A stretch of DNA of 64,000 bases, from the NCBI RefSeq assembly GCF_030581005.1, contig NZ_JAUQSX010000003.1, positions 1-64,000 on the forward strand, in the 5' to 3' direction. This DNA is from Hymenobacter mellowenesis. Its GTDB lineage: Bacteria; Bacteroidota; Bacteroidia; Cytophagales; Hymenobacteraceae. A program made the position numbers and the translations under genes. Shown here piece by piece: positions 20,239 through 27,034 of the stretch. Under the pieces are notes generated by a model that did not search any database, was not told the origin of the DNA, and saw only the letters and a list, made by a program, of their open reading frames with translations. How positions within the stretch are numbered: position 1 is the first letter of the stretch; every line of letters begins with the position of its first letter.

Positions 20239-21534
20239 ATGGCAAACCGTAACAAACCTCTCTCCGTGGAAGCTTACCGCTGGAAAGAGGCCGGTGCCGC
20301 ACTCGCGCGGCACGTCGACTGGCGCAATTGGCCCCAGTCTAAGCAAGTAGAATACCTGTTTTCCTTCGGCTCGCCCCATGCGCTTTATGAAGCACTGGGC
20401 GTCGATTCGGCCCTGGCTCAACTATTTGCGGCTTGCATGGCGGGCCGCACATTCACGAAGCAGGGCAACGTTTATCGGGCATTGCAGGCCATCTCGCTTA
20501 AGCGCACCGGCCTGCTGCACCGCCCCGAGTTGGCTCCAAATGTCGCCGCTCTGACCAGCCGATACGCCAAGCGGGTGCGTGAAGTAGCTGATTGGAAACC
20601 GAAGAGCAACAACGTGTTCCGACAGTTGGCCAGCCTGGTCCGGCATTTATTCGACCGCTACGGCAATGCGCCGGACTGGCTGATTGAATCCTGGACGCGG
20701 CCCACACTGGCGGAAGACGGCGTGAATCTGCCCGATTTGACCCTGCACCTCGGGCAAGGGCTTTCGCTACGCAGCTTCCCCCGGCTGCCCGTGCCTATCA
20801 GCAAACGGCTGGAGCACGGCATGCGGGAAGCGCCCGCCGGCTGCACCTTCCGCGAAGCCCTGCGCTACGCCCAGCTCGCCGCCCGCGACGCGCTGGCGTG
20901 GTGGGGCGTGGTGATGGAGTCGCGCCTGGGCCGCGCCCCGCTGGTCGATGATGCCTTCTGGCTGAGCGTGGTGGACTTTTTCGTGGCCTCGCCCATGGTC
21001 GACCCGCGCCATTTTGGTCCCGTCTGCGACTGGATTCATCAGAAGCGCAGCGTGGGCATCGGGGCGGAACCGGCCCAGCCGGGCTTCACCCTCAAGGGCC
21101 GCAGCATGGCCTCCGTGCTGGCCCAAACCGAACAATGGCACCACGGCCAGGCCCGGGCGCGTCGCCAATCGGGCGGCGCCAATCTGGCCGGCAGCAGCAG
21201 CTGGGCGGGCTTACCGGTGGATAATTTCTTCGCTGGACCAGTCCGCATCAAGCAGCTCACCACCGTCGAACAGCTGCAGAACGAAGGCATCGCGCAACAC
21301 AACTGCGTGGCCACTTACCTGCAATCGTGTCGGCTGGGCCGTTGCGGCATCTTTTCGCTGACCGTGGACGGCACCCGTGGCCTGACCATCGAAGTGACAG
21401 CCAACCGCACTGTGGTGCAGGTGCGCGGCAAATACAACCGCTGGATGACCACGCAGGAACACGCCTGGATAATCCAGTGGCTCAGCCAGGCCCGGTTGGT
21501 GCTCTCGAAGCACGTGGGGGTTGGGTGGGACTAG
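20239..21534 (+). CDS. PcfJ-like protein
   Basis: A 431-residue cytoplasmic protein ending in a PcfJ-type domain: EGIAQHNCVATYLQSC (about residues 348-363) with the HNCV motif, then FSLTVDGTRGLTIEV and RTVVQVRGKYNRW (about 388-400). PcfJ was named from conjugative plasmid pCF10 and its biochemical role is not known; the H-C pair suggests metal binding or catalysis. The N-terminal 300 residues are helical, basic and lack known motifs. It precedes the Ro60 gene on the same strand, which points to a role with Ro60, Y RNAs and RtcB (inference). Confidence 0.75.
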   Translation: MANRNKPLSVEAYRWKEAGAALARHVDWRNWPQSKQVEYLFSFGSPHALYEALGVDSALAQLFAACMAGRTFTKQGNVYRALQAISLKRTGLLHRPELAPNVAALTSRYAKRVREVADWKPKSNNVFRQLASLVRHLFDRYGNAPDWLIESWTRPTLAEDGVNLPDLTLHLGQGLSLRSFPRLPVPISKRLEHGMREAPAGCTFREALRYAQLAARDALAWWGVVMESRLGRAPLVDDAFWLSVVDFFVASPMVDPRHFGPVCDWIHQKRSVGIGAEPAQPGFTLKGRSMASVLAQTEQWHHGQARARRQSGGANLAGSSSWAGLPVDNFFAGPVRIKQLTTVEQLQNEGIAQHNCVATYLQSCRLGRCGIFSLTVDGTRGLTIEVTANRTVVQVRGKYNRWMTTQEHAWIIQWLSQARLVLSKHVGVGWD

Positions 21535-21544
21535 CCGGACGATG

Positions 21545-21620
21545 GTAGCGCGGACTTTTAGTCCGCGAGTTATCAACTCTACTTTGCACAATTCACTCGC
21601 GGACTAAAAGTCCGCGCTAC
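21545..21620. repeat. Perfect 26-bp inverted repeat before the Ro60 gene
   Basis: The arm begins GTAGCGCGGACTTTTAGTCC and is repeated exactly in inverted orientation 24 bases later. Each arm is itself nearly palindromic (CGGACTTTTAGTCCG). It looks like a small non-coding mobile element or a stable RNA hairpin between PcfJ and Ro60. Confidence 0.85.
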
Positions 21621-23213: not shown

Positions 23214-23329
23214 AGAGACGCAACATTTTGCGTCTCGTCGTTGAACGGCCGGAATCGCGCCGTTTGCAATTCAAAATTGCACAGGCATAACAACATCAGC
23301 AAAGACGAGACGCAAAATGTTGCGTCTCT
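23214..23329. repeat. Perfect 26-bp inverted repeat after the Ro60 gene
   Basis: The left arm (23214-23239, beginning AGAGACGCAACATTTTGCG) is repeated exactly in inverted form at 23304-23329. Each arm has an inner palindrome (GACGCAACATTTTGCGTC). The 64-base centre has no gene. It resembles a short MITE-like element and would fold into a very stable hairpin between Ro60 and the Y-RNA array. Confidence 0.88.
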
Positions 23330-23374: not shown

Positions 23375-23382
23375 GCTGCGGT

Positions 23383-23489
23383 GCAAGGTGGCGTAGGCGT
23401 GGCCTACTTCGCGAGGTGCATGGAAGGCCGTTTCGGCGGCAGGGGTTCGAATCCCCTCATCATAGTGGCCCGTCGCTCATTCCCCTTGC
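23383..23489 (+). ncRNA. Y-like RNA, unit A
   Basis: Outer stem GCAAGG/CCTTGC. Core GGTGGCGTAG at 23387-23396; the 8-bp inner helix 23396-23404 with 23467-23474 pairs fully with one bulged T; TACTTCG follows at 23405-23411. The return-strand motif is the most diverged of the array (CATTCCCC where others have TGTTGCCC). Inside are a long variable-arm-like hairpin (GGCCGTTTCGGCGGC) and a complete T-arm (AGGGG-TTCGAAT-CCCCT, 23441-23457), as in class II tRNAs (Leu, Ser). No acceptor pair or D-arm is present, so the tRNA-like module is truncated. Confidence 0.72.
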
Positions 23490-23555
23490 TTTTGGTAAAT
23501 ATTTCAAAATAAAAACAGCATGACTCACGTTTAAAAATTGCCGAAATGAGGAAGA

Positions 23556-23613
23556 CGGCTGCCCACCTGGGGCAGTCGACGACCGGGACGGGGCCACCTC
23601 GGTGACCCGTTCC
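23556..23613 (+). ncRNA. Two-hairpin structured element in the A-B gap
   Basis: The 145-base gap between units A and B holds two strong adjacent stems: CGGCTGCCC/GGGCAGTCG (23556-23578) and GGGACGGG/CCCGTTCC (23585-23613) with an inner CACC/GGTG. GGCTGCC at 23557 could also pair with GGCAGCC at 23619, giving an alternative closed fold. It lacks the core motifs of the Y units and has no T-loop, so it is a different RNA or a decayed unit. Function unknown. Confidence 0.35.
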
Positions 23614-23634
23614 ACCCCGGCAGCCTCCGCATGG

Positions 23635-23759
23635 TTCAGGTGCCGTAGGCGGGCGTTACTTCGTTGGTTGAAATCTGACTGTTCATCAGAGAGATTGGGT
23701 TCGAATCCCCCTCCGTAGCCCCGGCTGCGGTTGACACGCCGGCCGCTTGTTGCCCTGAA
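23635..23759 (+). ncRNA. Y-like RNA, unit B (Asn-like anticodon arm)
   Basis: Outer stem TTCAGG/CCTGAA, then a run of T. Core GGTGCCGTAG at 23639-23648; inner helix 23648-23655 with 23737-23744 (7 of 8 pairs); TACTTCG at 23657-23663; return motif TGTTGCCC. The module starts with a classic anticodon arm, stem TCTGA/TCAGA and seven-base loop CTGTTCA (23679-23685), where positions 34-36 read GTT. A T-arm GGG-TTCGAAT-CCC follows, and then a hairpin CCGTAGCC-CC-GGCTGCGG (23713-23730) in the place of the acceptor stem. The D-arm is missing. Confidence 0.82.
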
Positions 23760-23786
23760 TTTTTCGGGATTTAAGTTAAAAAATAC

Positions 23787-23939
23787 GTTTCCGGATGGGT
23801 GCCGTAGCCGGGCCTTTCTTCGCTCCAAATGAGGGGATGGTCGCGGGTTCGACTCCCGAAGTGCCGCCGCGAGGCGGTGCGAACGCGCATTGGTAGGGCC
23901 GCCCCAACTGGCCCGGCGACTGTTGCCCCAACCGGAAAC
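23787..23939 (+). ncRNA. Y-like RNA, unit C
   Basis: Outer stem GTTTCCGG/CCGGAAAC plus TGGG/CCCA. Core GGTGCCGTAG at 23798-23807; inner helix GCCGGGCC/GGCCCGGC (23807-23814 with 23910-23917) perfect; TTCTTCG at 23816-23822; return motif TGTTGCCC. The module has a short hairpin CTCC-AAATGA-GGGG, T-arm CGGG-TTCGACT-CCCG (23844-23858), and an acceptor-like stem GTGCCGCC/GGCGGTGC (23861-23880) closed by the GNRA tetraloop GCGA. A D-loop-like TTGGTAG follows. Order is that of a circularly permuted tRNA. Confidence 0.84.
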
Positions 23940-23946
23940 AAACCCT

Positions 23947-24097
23947 TGCATTGGGTGCCGTAGGCGAGTGATACTTCGGGACTTAGTTCTGTAAAGAATT
24001 GCGGGTTCGAGTCCCGTCTCGCAGCGTCAAAACTGCGAGTGGCGAAATTGGTAGACGCGCTAATTAATAGACACCCGCCGCTTTTTGCCCCAATGCA
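23947..24097 (+). ncRNA. Y-like RNA, unit D (tRNA-Leu-like)
   Basis: Outer stem TGCATTGGG/CCCAATGCA, 9 bp perfect. Core GGTGCCGTAG at 23954-23963; inner helix 23963-23970 with 24072-24079 (7 of 8 pairs); TACTTCG at 23972-23978; return motif TTTTGCCC. The module has a class II variable-arm hairpin (AGTTCT-GTAA-AGAATT), T-arm CGGG-TTCGAGT-CCCG, and a perfect 7-bp acceptor stem CTCGCAG/CTGCGAG (24018-24039) capped by CGTCAAAA, followed by GTGGCGAAATTGGTAGACGC, the 5' part of a bacterial tRNA-Leu. This is a permuted tRNA-Leu in which the acceptor ends are joined. Confidence 0.87.
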
Positions 24098-24109
24098 TTG
24101 ATTTCAAAC

Positions 24110-24258
24110 CCTGTCCGGGTGTCGTAGCCCGGCCATACTTCGCGCTTTTAACGCCCAGGTCGCGGGTTCGAATCCCGCCGGAAATAGCCGCGAGGCCGTT
24201 TCCGTAGCTCAGTGGTAGAGCAGGACTAGCAGGCCGGGCGCTTGTTGCCCCGGGCAGG
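24110..24258 (+). ncRNA. Y-like RNA, unit E (complete permuted tRNA, Lys-like)
   Basis: Outer stem CCTGTCCGGG/CCCGGGCAGG, 10 bp. Core GGTGTCGTAG at 24118-24127; inner helix GCCCGGCC/GGCCGGGC (24127-24134 with 24232-24239) perfect; TACTTCG at 24136-24142; return motif TGTTGCCC. The module is the most complete: anticodon arm GCG-CTTTTAA-CGC with TTT at 24147-24149 (lysine), variable region, T-arm GCGGG-TTCGAAT-CCCGC (24162-24178), acceptor CGGAAA/TTTCCG (24179-24204) capped by GCC-GCGA-GGC, and D-arm GCTC-AGTGGTA-GAGC (24207-24221). All four tRNA arms are present in permuted order. Confidence 0.88.
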
Positions 24259-24263
24259 TTTTG

Positions 24264-24342
24264 GGTTGAAAAGGTGGCGTAGCGCAGCCTTACTTCGTTC
24301 TCTTAAACTCAAGCGGCTGCGCGTTTTTGACCCTTTTCAATC
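24264..24342 (+). ncRNA. Y-like RNA, unit F (minimal, no tRNA module)
   Basis: Only 79 bases. Outer stem GGTTGAAAAGG/CCTTTTCAATC, 11 bp with one G.T. Core GGTGGCGTAG at 24273-24282; inner helix GCGCAGCC/GGCTGCGC (24282-24289 with 24315-24322) perfect; TACTTCG at 24291-24297. The inner loop is only 25 bases and contains no tRNA arms. The return motif is TTTGACCC. This is the bare Ro-binding skeleton and shows which parts of the other units are structurally essential. Confidence 0.8.
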
Positions 24343-24355
24343 AAGTTTTAAGTTG

Positions 24356-24437
24356 CCGGATGCCGTAGTCTCGCGCTACTTCGACCTGTCACGTCGGTTC
24401 CTTCGGGAGCCAATACGCAAGCCGCCTGTTGCTCCGG
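24356..24437 (+). ncRNA. Y-like RNA, unit G (Asp-like anticodon arm)
   Basis: Outer stem CCGGA/TCCGG followed by TTTTTT. Core GATGCCGTAG at 24359-24368; inner helix 24368-24375 with 24416-24423 (6 of 8 pairs); TACTTCG at 24377-24383; return motif TGTTGCTCC. The insert is short: an anticodon-arm-like hairpin CGAC-CTGTCAC-GTCG (24382-24396) in which positions 34-36 read GTC (aspartate), overlapping the conserved TTCG, and a second hairpin GGTTCC-TTCG-GGAGCC (24396-24411) with a UUCG tetraloop. No T-arm or D-arm. Confidence 0.78.
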
Positions 24438-24446
24438 TTTTTTCTG

Positions 24447-24598
24447 AATAAAACGGGCCGGTGCCGTAGCACCGCCTTACTTCGTTAGGGACGATGGGGT
24501 CGCCGGTTCGATTCCGGCTCGTGGGCTCCGGCCCACGGTAGCTCAGCTGGTTAGAGCACATATGTGGGCGTTGCGCCTGTTGCCCGGCTCGTTTTATT
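24447..24598 (+). ncRNA. Y-like RNA, unit H (permuted tRNA with UCCG cap)
   Basis: Longest outer stem, AATAAAACGGGCCGG with CCGGCTCGTTTTATT, 15 bp with one G.T. Core GGTGCCGTAG at 24460-24469; inner helix 24469-24476 with 24567-24574 (7 of 8); TACTTCG at 24478-24484; return motif TGTTGCCC. The module has T-arm GCCGG-TTCGATT-CCGGC (24502-24518), acceptor CGTGGGC/GCCCACG (24520-24537) capped by the stable tetraloop TCCG, and a textbook D-arm GCTC-AGCTGGTTA-GAGC (24541-24557). There is no clear anticodon arm. The 3' end lies 64 bases before the rtcB start, so the last unit may be cut from the rtcB leader. Confidence 0.86.
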
Positions 24599-24662: not shown

Positions 24663-26063
24663 ATGGCCAATTCATTACGCGGCAACGACCTCCGAAACCT
24701 TGGTTTCCCGGAGGGCCGCGCCATCGGGCTCGCGCTGGCTCAATTGCAGCGCAAGCACCTCAAGAAACTCTCCCAAACCGACCAGCTGGCTTTGCTAGGT
24801 CAACTCATTGCCAACCCCCACGACTACCTCACCCACCTCGACTGGAGCCACACGGCTGCGGCCTTATTGCTCCCGCCCAACCGCCACATCAGCCTGGTGG
24901 AGCGCAAGGACTACGCCGTGTTCGGGGCCGAGCACATCGAGCCCGGCGCCGTTCATCAAATGGAAATTGCGATGAAGCTACCCGTGACCGTGGCCGGCGC
25001 GCTCATGCCCGATGCCCACCACGGCTATGGCCTGCCCATCGGCGGCGTGCTGGCCACCGACAACGCGGTGATTCCCTACGCCGTGGGCGTCGACATCGGC
25101 TGCCGCATGGCCTTGTCGGTGTTCGATTTGCCGCCCAAATACCTCACCCAGCGCACCCAAGAGCTACGCAGCCTGCTGCTCGAAAACACCCGTTTCGGCA
25201 GCGGCCGGGGCTGGGAGCGGGGCCAGCGCCTCGACCATGCCGTGCTCGACCGGGCCGAGTTCCAGGAAATTCCCTTTCTGAAAAACAAGCTCGACAAAGC
25301 CGCTGAGCAGGTCGGGACTTCCGGCTCCGGCAACCACTTCGTGGAGCTCGGTATTGTCGAAATCACCGACGTGGAAAACGAGTTGGGTGTGCCCGTAGGC
25401 CAGTACCTAGGCGTGCTCTCGCACTCCGGCTCGCGGGGCCTGGGCGCGGGCATTGCCGAGCGCTACACCAAGCTGGCCAAGGACGTGTGCCAGCTGCCCG
25501 GCGAAGCCCAGCACCTCGCCTGGCTCGGCCTCGACACCGAGGCCGGCCAGGAATACTGGGCCGCCATGACGCTGGCCGGCGACTACGCCTCGGCCTGCCA
25601 CGAGCAGATTCACCGCCGCCTGGCCAAAGCCCTCGGCGAAAAGCCCCTGGCGAAAGTGGAAAACCACCACAACTTCGCCTGGAAAGAGCGCCTGGCCGAT
25701 GGCCGTGAGGTCATCACGCACCGTAAGGGGGCCACCCCGGCCGGCGCGGGCGTGCTCGGCATCATTCCCGGGTCGATGACGGCCCCCGGCTTCATCGTGC
25801 GCGGTCGGGGCGTGGCCGAGTCGCTGGCTTCGGCTTCGCACGGGGCCGGGCGGCTCATGTCGCGCACCCGTGCCAAGGCCGAGCTGGGCGAAGGCCAGGT
25901 GCGCAAGTACCTCGCCGACCACGGCATCGAACTCATCGGCGGCGGGCTCGACGAAGCGCCCCAGGCCTACAAGGACATCCGCGCTGTGATGGCCAGCCAG
26001 CGCGAGCTGGTGGATGTGCTGGGCTCTTTCACTCCGAAAATCGTGCGGATGGACGGCGCCTAA
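24663..26063 (+). CDS. rtcB: RtcB RNA ligase
   Basis: A 466-residue GTP- and manganese-dependent RNA ligase that joins 2',3'-cyclic phosphate (or 3'-phosphate) and 5'-OH ends, as left by anticodon nucleases. Metal-site blocks are visible: MPDAHHGYGLPIGGV near residue 115, VDIGCRMALS near 140, GSGNHFVELG near 221. The guanylated histidine sits in THRKGATPAG at residue 353. The start is the ATG in MANSLRGND; an upstream in-frame ATG would run into Y-RNA unit H. It closes the PcfJ-Ro60-Y array-RtcB island; no RtcA cyclase is adjacent. Confidence 0.95.
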   Translation: MANSLRGNDLRNLGFPEGRAIGLALAQLQRKHLKKLSQTDQLALLGQLIANPHDYLTHLDWSHTAAALLLPPNRHISLVERKDYAVFGAEHIEPGAVHQMEIAMKLPVTVAGALMPDAHHGYGLPIGGVLATDNAVIPYAVGVDIGCRMALSVFDLPPKYLTQRTQELRSLLLENTRFGSGRGWERGQRLDHAVLDRAEFQEIPFLKNKLDKAAEQVGTSGSGNHFVELGIVEITDVENELGVPVGQYLGVLSHSGSRGLGAGIAERYTKLAKDVCQLPGEAQHLAWLGLDTEAGQEYWAAMTLAGDYASACHEQIHRRLAKALGEKPLAKVENHHNFAWKERLADGREVITHRKGATPAGAGVLGIIPGSMTAPGFIVRGRGVAESLASASHGAGRLMSRTRAKAELGEGQVRKYLADHGIELIGGGLDEAPQAYKDIRAVMASQRELVDVLGSFTPKIVRMDGA

Positions 26064-26125: not shown

Positions 26126-27034
26126 TCAATTGAAAGAAGCCCGGAATTCCAGCGGCGACAGGTTGGTTTTGGCCTTAAATAGCTTGCTGAACGAAGGCAA
26201 ATGCTCGAACCCCAGTTCGTAAGCAATTTCGCTGACGGTCAGAGTCGTGGTTGATAATTTTTCTTTGGCTTTGGCAATGAGCCAAGCGTGGATGTGCTGC
26301 TGGGTACTTTGCCCGGTCACGACGCGCAACAGGTTGCTCAGGTACTTGGGCGACAGCTGGAGGGCATCGGCCACATAGTGCACGCTGGGCAGGCCGCGTT
26401 CCAACAGGTTGTCGCTGTTGAAATAATCCTGCAGCAGGGTTTCCAGGCGTTCGAGCACCTCGTGGTTGGCCTTTTCGCGGGTGAGGAACTGGCGGTTATA
26501 AAATCGGTCGGCGTAGTGCAGCAGGCTTTCCAGCTGCGATACGATAATCTGCTTGCTGAACCGGTCGATGGGCGACGCATATTCCTGCTGGATGGCGAAG
26601 ACGAGGTTCAGAATGGCCTCTTCCTCCTTTGCCGACAGAAACAGGCCCTCCTTGAGCGAGTAATCCCAGAAATCGTACTGCTTGATGGTCCGGGCCAGCG
26701 GTGTATTCCACAGAAAGTCGGGGTGGATGTACACCACCCACCCCGATTTTTCTACTTCCTCATTCGCGTCGGCCACCGCCATGCTGAACACCTGATTTGG
26801 GGCCATGAAAGACATAATGCCTTCGTTGAAATCAAACGAATGCTGCCCGTATTTCATGCTCACATTGTGCATGCGCTTGACCGAAATGGAGTAAAAGTCG
26901 AAGACCATGCTCGTCGGCTCCTCGCCGTAGCGGTGCGGCACGGTGCCCACGTCCACCACGCTCAGGAGCGGATGCTGGGGCTTGGGCAGTTGCGCAAACG
27001 CGTGAAACTCGCTTATCGTGGTGAAGCGCCTCAT
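26126..27034 (-). CDS. AraC-family transcriptional regulator
   Basis: A 302-residue regulator. The C terminus holds the two AraC helix-turn-helix motifs: LSPKYLSNLLRVVTG (about residues 217-231) and TVSEIAYELGFEHLPSFSKLFKAKTNLSP (in parts, about 265-293). The N-terminal half looks like a cupin-type sensing domain. The start, MRRFTTISEFH, overlaps the stop of the upstream quinone oxidoreductase gene by four bases, so the two are co-translated and the regulator may act on its own operon. Confidence 0.9.
   Translation of the reverse strand: MRRFTTISEFHAFAQLPKPQHPLLSVVDVGTVPHRYGEEPTSMVFDFYSISVKRMHNVSMKYGQHSFDFNEGIMSFMAPNQVFSMAVADANEEVEKSGWVVYIHPDFLWNTPLARTIKQYDFWDYSLKEGLFLSAKEEEAILNLVFAIQQEYASPIDRFSKQIIVSQLESLLHYADRFYNRQFLTREKANHEVLERLETLLQDYFNSDNLLERGLPSVHYVADALQLSPKYLSNLLRVVTGQSTQQHIHAWLIAKAKEKLSTTTLTVSEIAYELGFEHLPSFSKLFKAKTNLSPLEFRASFN

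Follow-up and report, generated by a model that had tools for sequence, protein, structure and literature searches.

The 64 kb stretch of Hymenobacter mellowenesis DNA analysed here (the window) contains a Ro60/TROVE gene and an RtcB RNA ligase gene, and the 1.2 kb stretch between them is filled by eight predicted small-RNA units, A to H, all on the + strand. The units share a stem module, and most of them carry within this module sequence that resembles parts of transfer RNA (tRNA).

A common stem module in eight units

Each unit opens with an outer stem, followed by GGTGNCGTAG (GATGCCGTAG in G) and an 8 bp helix, with TACTTCG lying one base inside this helix (TTCTTCG in C); the return strand carries a three-base gap, a TGTTG-like block and CCC. 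This layout, and the placing of eight such units between Ro60 and RtcB, had been proposed from the letters of the DNA in an earlier account (hereafter the sequence-only reading). The description of the motif reads as claimed, the motif starts were confirmed (23387, 23639, 23798, 23954, 24118, 24273, 24359 and 24460 for units A to H) and the flanking genes match PF05731 and PF01139.

A covariance model (R1) was built from 31 E-type units, including unit E of the window; its calibration was short and its E-values are rough. This single model finds all eight units in the window (E-values in Table 1), as expected of the one family that the sequence-only reading had seen in them, and finds nothing else there below an E-value of 0.14. 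Over the whole host genome R1 gives six matches at an E-value of 1e-3 or better, every one of them in the array. From B to H, successive matches are separated by 3 to 23 bases, which bears out the tight packing described for them.

The named loci used for comparison are the best 80 of 579 matches; 47 are from the Hymenobacter group and 33 from other Bacteroidota, and the best match among the 80 is that of H. rubidus (L086; 97%). The helices were assessed on 226 motifs from the window and the 47 Hymenobacter-group loci. Partner strands were picked by a 3' anchor with pairing ignored, and the 91 motifs without an anchor were dropped, leaving 135. The 16 fixed-register pairs of the outer and inner helices are formed in 86.3% of the cells, compared with a mean of 57.6% and a maximum of 60.2% when the partners were shuffled 500 times, and with a mean of 52% or less when the partners are slid by 1-3 bases. 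The shared helices have statistical support across homologous loci. That the eight units are one family with conserved, covarying outer and inner helices is confirmed. The common stem module is a predicted Ro60-binding site.

The likeness to Y RNAs that the sequence-only reading had proposed is supported. The units form one family beside Ro60, and the Rfam YrlA model (RF02553) partially matches three of them: E with 39.2 bits over 24155-24224 (E-value 1e-6), H with 34.5 bits (2.4e-5) and D with an E-value of 0.45. These matches cover model positions 23-86 or 29-81 only and score 19.7-39.2 bits, below the cut-off of 69 bits; at the gathering threshold there is no match in the array and none in any of 198 Bacteroidota genomes. 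Partial matches under the cut-off occur in 52 of these 198 genomes and in six of 14 control genomes, one of them beside a tRNA cluster, and for this reason YrlA matches are weak evidence of Y RNAs.

Permuted tRNA-like bodies and predicted anticodon arms

The tRNA-derived content of the units, including the copies of anticodon arms, was absent from the sequence-only reading. The part between the stems of each unit was compared with 42 distinct host tRNAs written 3' half first and 5' half second. Units D, E and H score 68, 72 and 74 against shuffle maxima of 40, 44 and 40, respectively, and unit C scores 50 against 38. As judged by sequence, D, E and H appear to be circularly permuted tRNAs that run from T arm through acceptor 3' strand, closing loop and acceptor 5' strand to D arm. 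The acceptor end would be closed in all three, and the Ro60-type stem would sit where the anticodon stem is opened. When the array was tested for tRNA genes there was no ARAGORN call and no Rfam match at the gathering threshold; the acceptor strands are loop-closed.

The three best-scoring tRNAs for unit D are all tRNA-Leu. The wider set of 230 units comes from the window and the 47 relatives, after two units with middles of more than 130 nt (L122 8780 and L131 11738) had been dropped. Of these, 107 pass the tRNA thresholds; the best isotype is Leu in 18 of the 230 (by a margin of 6-30 over the next isotype) and Ser in five (by 12-36), and the Leu and Ser copies retain the long variable arm. 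In the window, L087, L089, L091 and L095 the slot whose outer stem is cttgcattg, or a near form of it, is occupied by a Leu copy; in L086, L096 and L124 its occupant is a Ser copy. One stem carrying two tRNAs reads as a module swap. A single isotype for the class I units E and H was considered and dropped, the best and next scores being close (for E, Lys 72 and Thr 70).

A full tRNA-body parse (T stem, 7 nt acceptor strands, T8, D stem and GG in the D loop, with thresholds that include pairing) was obtained for 86 of the 230 units. T54, T55-C56 and A58 are each present in all 86, T55 and A58 having already been required by the pattern. The positions that form the tRNA elbow are also kept (T8 in 83, A14 in 82 and R15-Y48 in 82); T8 and A14 helped to select the parse and R15-Y48 did not.

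In a tRNA, five bases (44-48) and a five-base stem strand separate the anticodon loop from the T arm. The same register was sought by reading back from the T arm in the 93 units for which the T arm and the end of the D arm were both parsed. A 7 nt loop with at least two local closing pairs is found in 61 of the 93, compared with four for a loop of 6 nt and three for 8 nt. A 9 nt loop is found in 38 at two local pairs, but in only two at three pairs, against 57 for the 7 nt loop. When pairs from the D-arm side are added to the local ones, the total reaches five in 71 units for the 7 nt loop and in 11-13 for the other lengths. The five-pair stem of E-type units is therefore read as split, with two bases (27 and 28) following the D arm, three preceding the loop and the Ro60-type stem entering between the two parts. 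Of the 59 arms accepted, 55 have T at position 33 and 54 have a purine at position 37. The loop equals a host anticodon loop in 21 of the 59 (shuffled mean of 0.35 and maximum of 3 in 1000 rounds).

The loops differ by type of unit. All 38 E-type units are in the tRNA register (L118 with a mismatched closing pair) and 37 have U33; the loop is CTTTTAA, that of host tRNA-Lys(UUU), in 18, and the anticodon is TTT in 19 and CTT in seven. G-type units are in register in 18 of 22 cases, with CTGTCAC (Asp(GUC)) in ten and CTGTTAA (Asn(GUU)) in three. The tRNA-Phe(GAA) loop CTGAAAA is present in 12 of 16 F-type units, while unit F of the window has CTCTTAA. All 17 letters of the host tRNA-Asn(GUU) anticodon arm, TCTGACTGTTAATCAGA (TCTGA-CTGTTAA-TCAGA), occur in six of the 230 units. 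A wider count of hairpins with at least two pairs near TACTTCG and with a loop among 40 host loops gave 63 of 230 units (shuffle mean of 2.0 and maximum of 7 in 200 rounds), and host loops read backwards gave none. Twelve of the 63 are doubtful, nine being H-type loops at the wrong offset and three C-type loops closed by two G-T pairs; 51 remain. Among other Bacteroidota, host-type loops occur in five of 38 units (Lys, Met, Ser, Asn and Asp; shuffled mean of 0.14 and maximum of 3). Loop counts overstate the number of events because related sequences are not independent; the recurrence of the loops in several slots and in distant groups carries more weight.

The structures were also predicted from alignments of 31 of the 38 E units (seven dropped) and 18 of the 22 G units (four dropped). 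For the E units alifold returned, unprompted, the outer and inner stems, the T arm, the acceptor stem, the D arm and a three-pair hairpin with a 7 nt loop. Of the 45 pairs, 22 are changed on both sides, including one in the hairpin (A-U in 28 units and G-C in three). For 13 Leu units 23 of 37 pairs are changed on both sides, and the structure includes the variable arm (two pairs) and no anticodon hairpin. In single lowest-energy folds the anticodon hairpin appears in units E and G.

Distribution in relatives and surroundings of the array

R1 matches in the 47 Hymenobacter-group loci number 274 (282 when the window is counted), and all of them share the strand of Ro60. The number per locus ranges from 3 to 11, and eight units are thus not exceptional within the genus. 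In all 47, RtcB is encoded downstream on that strand; the order Ro60, units (by the parser), RtcB is seen in eight of the 33 loci from other Bacteroidota. Among 59 relative genomes TROVE is present in 26, and full-length R1 matches lie beside it in 25, the exception being G044. R1 matches were also found in six of the 33 relatives without TROVE, and the plain pattern GGTGNCGTAGN10CTTCG has single matches in seven of them. Partial matches to R1 positions 29-119 in G005, G020, G046 and G049 probably reflect tRNA genes that abut. Weak full-length matches (1e-4 range) occur in the TROVE-less G035, G049 and G056, and additional partial matches away from Ro60 in G033, G044 and G051. In G005, Ro60 was not found in the genome and remnants of a B-like and a G-like unit lie beside RtcB (L166 4949-6670); this is likely to be decay after the loss of Ro60.

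In viral contigs a strict parser found units in only nine of 80 Ro60 loci (80 kept of 230), and one of 11 viral units has a host anticodon loop. One viral contig (L200, 6254) has Ro60 and a unit with the hairpin TTCGA-CTTGTAA-TCGAG, the loop of which is that of tRNA-Thr(UGU).

The array and its neighbours are listed in Table 1. The vWA domain of Ro60 (PF25045) scores 19.6 bits in the Ro60 gene, under the cut-off of 27.7. A PcfJ-like gene lies upstream in 19 of the 47 Hymenobacter-group loci; in L091, L119, L121, L122 and L129 it lies within the array and not upstream of Ro60. A microbial-type PARG gene (PF10021) stands between units A and B in L095 (7746-8639; E-value 5e-45) and L089 (8058-8915; 1.3e-41). 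In some relatives RtcB is followed by a second gene with a start resembling that of the RtcB gene (L045 1244-2689, minus strand; L039 6848-8395). Two perfect inverted-repeat pairs (GAGACGCAACATTTTGCGTCTC and GCGCGGACTTTTAGTCCGCG) flank the Ro60 gene of the window, at 23215-23328 and 21548-21617, and have no other occurrence in the window. The conserved structured element between units A and B folds in alifold with 21 pairs, four of them changed on both sides, and might be another RNA or a signal for processing. Simple promoter scans of the array region found none, and its terminator-like sites (three, against 2.9 in shuffles) are not in excess. These scans and the common strand of all 274 matches in relatives are hints of the processed polycistronic precursor that the sequence-only reading had suggested, which remains a conjecture. 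An ARAGORN tRNA-Thr call at 26378-26468 lies inside an AraC-type gene of the opposite strand and is probably false. Elsewhere in the host genome there are an odd tRNA called Asp with the anticodon ATC (C19:19501-19576) and a 98 nt tRNA match without an ARAGORN call (C22:192076-192173).

Table 1. Units of the array, elements within them and neighbouring genes, in window coordinates; R1 E-values are from the search of the window.
Feature	Coordinates	Strand	Evidence
PcfJ-like gene, upstream of Ro60	20239..21534	+	PF14284, E 3.8e-13
Ro60 (TROVE) gene, 507 aa	21672..23195	+	PF05731, E 5.2e-29, cut-off passed
Unit A: stem module and T-arm-like hairpin, without D arm	23378..23495	+	R1, E 4.8e-6
Conserved structured element in the A-B gap, different in type from the units	23545..23629	+	Upstream of 12/12 aligned B-type units
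Unit B: stem module, anticodon-arm-like hairpin and T-loop hairpin, without D arm	23630..23765	+	R1, E 3.8e-9
Unit B hairpin TCTGA-CTGTTCA-TCAGA	23674..23690	+	One base off host tRNA-Asn(GUU) arm
Unit C: permuted tRNA-like, with T arm and GGTAG D-loop-like sequence	23789..23938	+	R1, E 8e-17
Unit D: putative permuted tRNA-Leu copy	23945..24100	+	R1, E 7.1e-15
Unit D long variable arm TTCT-GTAA-AGAA	23987..23998	+	Sequence; alifold (two pairs)
Unit D D-arm block, 21/21 letters equal to host tRNA-Leu(CAG)	24039..24059	+	Sequence comparison
Unit E: putative permuted class I tRNA copy with anticodon arm	24109..24260	+	R1, E 2.2e-39
Unit E anticodon stem-loop GCG-CTTTTAA-CGC (loop 24145-24151, equal to host tRNA-Lys UUU)	24142..24154	+	Lowest-energy fold, alifold
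Unit E T arm	24162..24178	+	Parse, alifold, lowest-energy fold
Unit F: short unit	24264..24343	+	R1, E 3.5e-7
Unit G: short unit with anticodon stem-loop	24350..24444	+	R1, E 1.5e-5
Unit G stem-loop CGAC-CTGTCAC-GTCG (loop 24386-24392, equal to host tRNA-Asp GUC)	24382..24396	+	Loop identity, lowest-energy fold
Unit H: putative permuted class I tRNA copy	24451..24595	+	R1, E 1.1e-24
Unit H anticodon-arm register TCG-TTAGGGA-CGA	24482..24494	+	Register
RtcB RNA ligase gene	24663..26063	+	PF01139, E 1.2e-80

Possible role and known systems

We favour, with a probability of about 0.42, the reading that the array would encode Y-type RNAs with a predicted Ro60-binding stem, most of them with a tRNA-derived far end and some with an anticodon loop, and that these ends may act as decoys for tRNA-cutting enzymes. 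The eight units would likely be made together with the adjacent Ro60 and RtcB genes; the array would be transcribed and then cut into single RNAs, and Ro60 would bind the shared stem of each. Nucleases that cut Lys(UUU), Asn(GUU), Asp(GUC) or Phe(GAA) tRNAs would meet the copies first, and the adjacent RtcB might reseal cut copies or cut tRNAs. The copies lack a free acceptor end and would not be charged; the anticodon loop is kept in some of them, and the rest have just the body.

The decoy reading is preferred because of the closed acceptor ends, the kept anticodon loops, the adjoining RtcB, the induction of the Salmonella operon and the targets of AriB. According to PMC7790460, tRNAs cleaved in their anticodon loop induce the rsr-yrlBA-rtcBA operon of Salmonella, and one role that the authors consider for YrlA is competitive inhibition of the nuclease. 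The AriB nuclease of PARIS has the tRNAs for Lys(UUU), Thr(UGU) and Asn(GUU) as targets and is inhibited by extra tRNA variants (PMC12409363). Lys and Asn loops, both of AriB target types, are common among the units, and the Thr loop is found in the viral unit of L200.

A bolder and more tentative form of the decoy reading takes the array as an anticodon library. Uncharged copies held by Ro60 (Lys, Asn, Asp, Phe and others) would bait anticodon nucleases of phages, of rivals or of the host's own defences, and the Leu and Ser copies would bait readers of the long variable arm. RtcB from the same operon would reseal the bait for reuse, and slots would swap copies (D from Leu to Ser, G from Asp to Asn) as nucleases change.

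Several observations weigh against the decoy reading. An anticodon hairpin is missing from the Leu and Ser units, and the idea of a nuclease decoy therefore fits them less well. In the comparison with host tRNAs, units A (36, shuffle maximum 42), F and G lie within the shuffles and unit B (42) is barely above its shuffle maximum of 40; the loops of units F and H of the window match no host loop. The anticodon stem of E consists of three local pairs and two from the D-arm side, and the alifold structure of the E units also has ACTT paired with AGGT, in competition with the tRNA reading of these bases; the 7 nt hairpin stays in both. The alifold structure of the 18 G units has the stem module and omits the anticodon hairpin. 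In their lowest-energy folds, units A, B, C, D and H depart partly from the expected form: the 7 nt loop is not formed in B and the anticodon arm is absent in H; the fold of F has a 6 nt loop. The z-scores of the folds range between 0.29 for A and -3.31 for D, and A and G (z-score of -0.48) fold no better than shuffles. Finally, YrlA fragments were not seen in Salmonella (PMC7790460).

Ranking next after the decoy is the idea that the tRNA-like end acts as a tether and gate, linking Ro60 to polynucleotide phosphorylase or another partner and steering it toward structured RNAs, with different copies fitting different partners. In its favour, the tRNA elbow is conserved in the full parses, and such a role has been described for Y RNAs of Deinococcus and Salmonella, with the Rsr-Y RNA-polynucleotide phosphorylase complex of Deinococcus radiodurans covered in PMC8394870 and PMC7790460. 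We nevertheless regard it as doubtful, as it leaves unexplained the exact anticodon loops with U33 in units F and G, which lack an elbow. Somewhat less probable again is that the units dock or titrate tRNA-modifying enzymes or synthetases at Ro60 (candidates being those for t6A37 and queuosine 34 and the seryl and leucyl synthetases). DusA and TruB both accept YrlA as a substrate (PMC8394870), and the purine at position 37 and the long variable arm of the Leu and Ser copies would suit such enzymes; docking gives no reason, however, for RtcB to adjoin the array in all 47 loci. It is improbable that the units are sensors, cut by the same nucleases as the tRNAs, with fragments that signal damage and with the tRNAs not spared. 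In Salmonella 5' tRNA halves with a cyclic phosphate do activate RtcR (PMC7790460), but a sensor would need one copy and not 3-11. Functionless debris of tandem tRNA genes, which when abutting also yield the order T arm to D arm and might account for partial YrlA matches across Bacteroidota and controls, is refuted in the main by the covarying enclosing stem module, and full-length R1 matches beside Ro60 in nearly all TROVE-bearing relatives leave it scarcely credible.

Should exact anticodon loops prove common among the bacterial Y RNAs that adjoin RNA-repair genes, their role there becomes directly testable, by asking which tRNA-cutting enzymes touch which unit. If the decoy reading is true, one mechanism would unite Ro60, RtcB repair and tRNA-cutting defence, and circularly permuted tRNAs would form a diversified panel with swapped isotypes, class II tRNAs included.

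Some of this has precedent. Bacterial Y RNAs that copy tRNAs are already known (PMC8394870), and TROVE with a tRNA-like partner has been called a platform for RNA repair (PMC7824862). In the open literature searched, the coverage of which does not extend to the main bacterial Y-RNA papers, there is no report of anticodon arms in Y RNAs; as far as this search reaches, the anticodon arms, the class II copies, the short units with an anticodon arm only and the slot swaps are new.

In the broad sense of a bacterial Y RNA as an RNA beside a Ro60 gene, the units qualify in the window, in 25 of the 26 TROVE-bearing relatives and in 47 of 47 named loci of the Hymenobacter group. Like YrlA in the Salmonella rsr-yrlBA-rtcBA arrangement, they lie beside Ro60 and RtcB. 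The YrlA form of a long stem with a permuted tRNA-like module (T arm, acceptor stem and D arm) is also that of units D, E and H. Where E-type units have the anticodon arm, between the stem and the T arm, the displayed part of the YrlA consensus (positions 17-92) is without a hairpin; the array differs further in its Leu and Ser copies with long variable arms, its short units with an anticodon arm only and its 3-11 units per locus. The Deinococcus complex of Rsr, Y RNA and polynucleotide phosphorylase (RYPER) is similar in joining Ro60 with a Y RNA. Transfer-messenger RNA (tmRNA) is likewise not itself a tRNA but contains a copy of part of one, and there are short T-arm matches to it in units A, C, D and E; these span 15-18 model positions only, and the units, unlike tmRNA, have no reading frame and no free acceptor end. 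The tRNAs of phage T5 that act against AriB of PARIS are comparable as extra RNAs with Lys(UUU), Thr(UGU) or Asn(GUU) anticodon loops. Those, however, are true tRNAs, whereas the units of the array appear to be permuted copies with a closed acceptor end and a Ro60-type stem.

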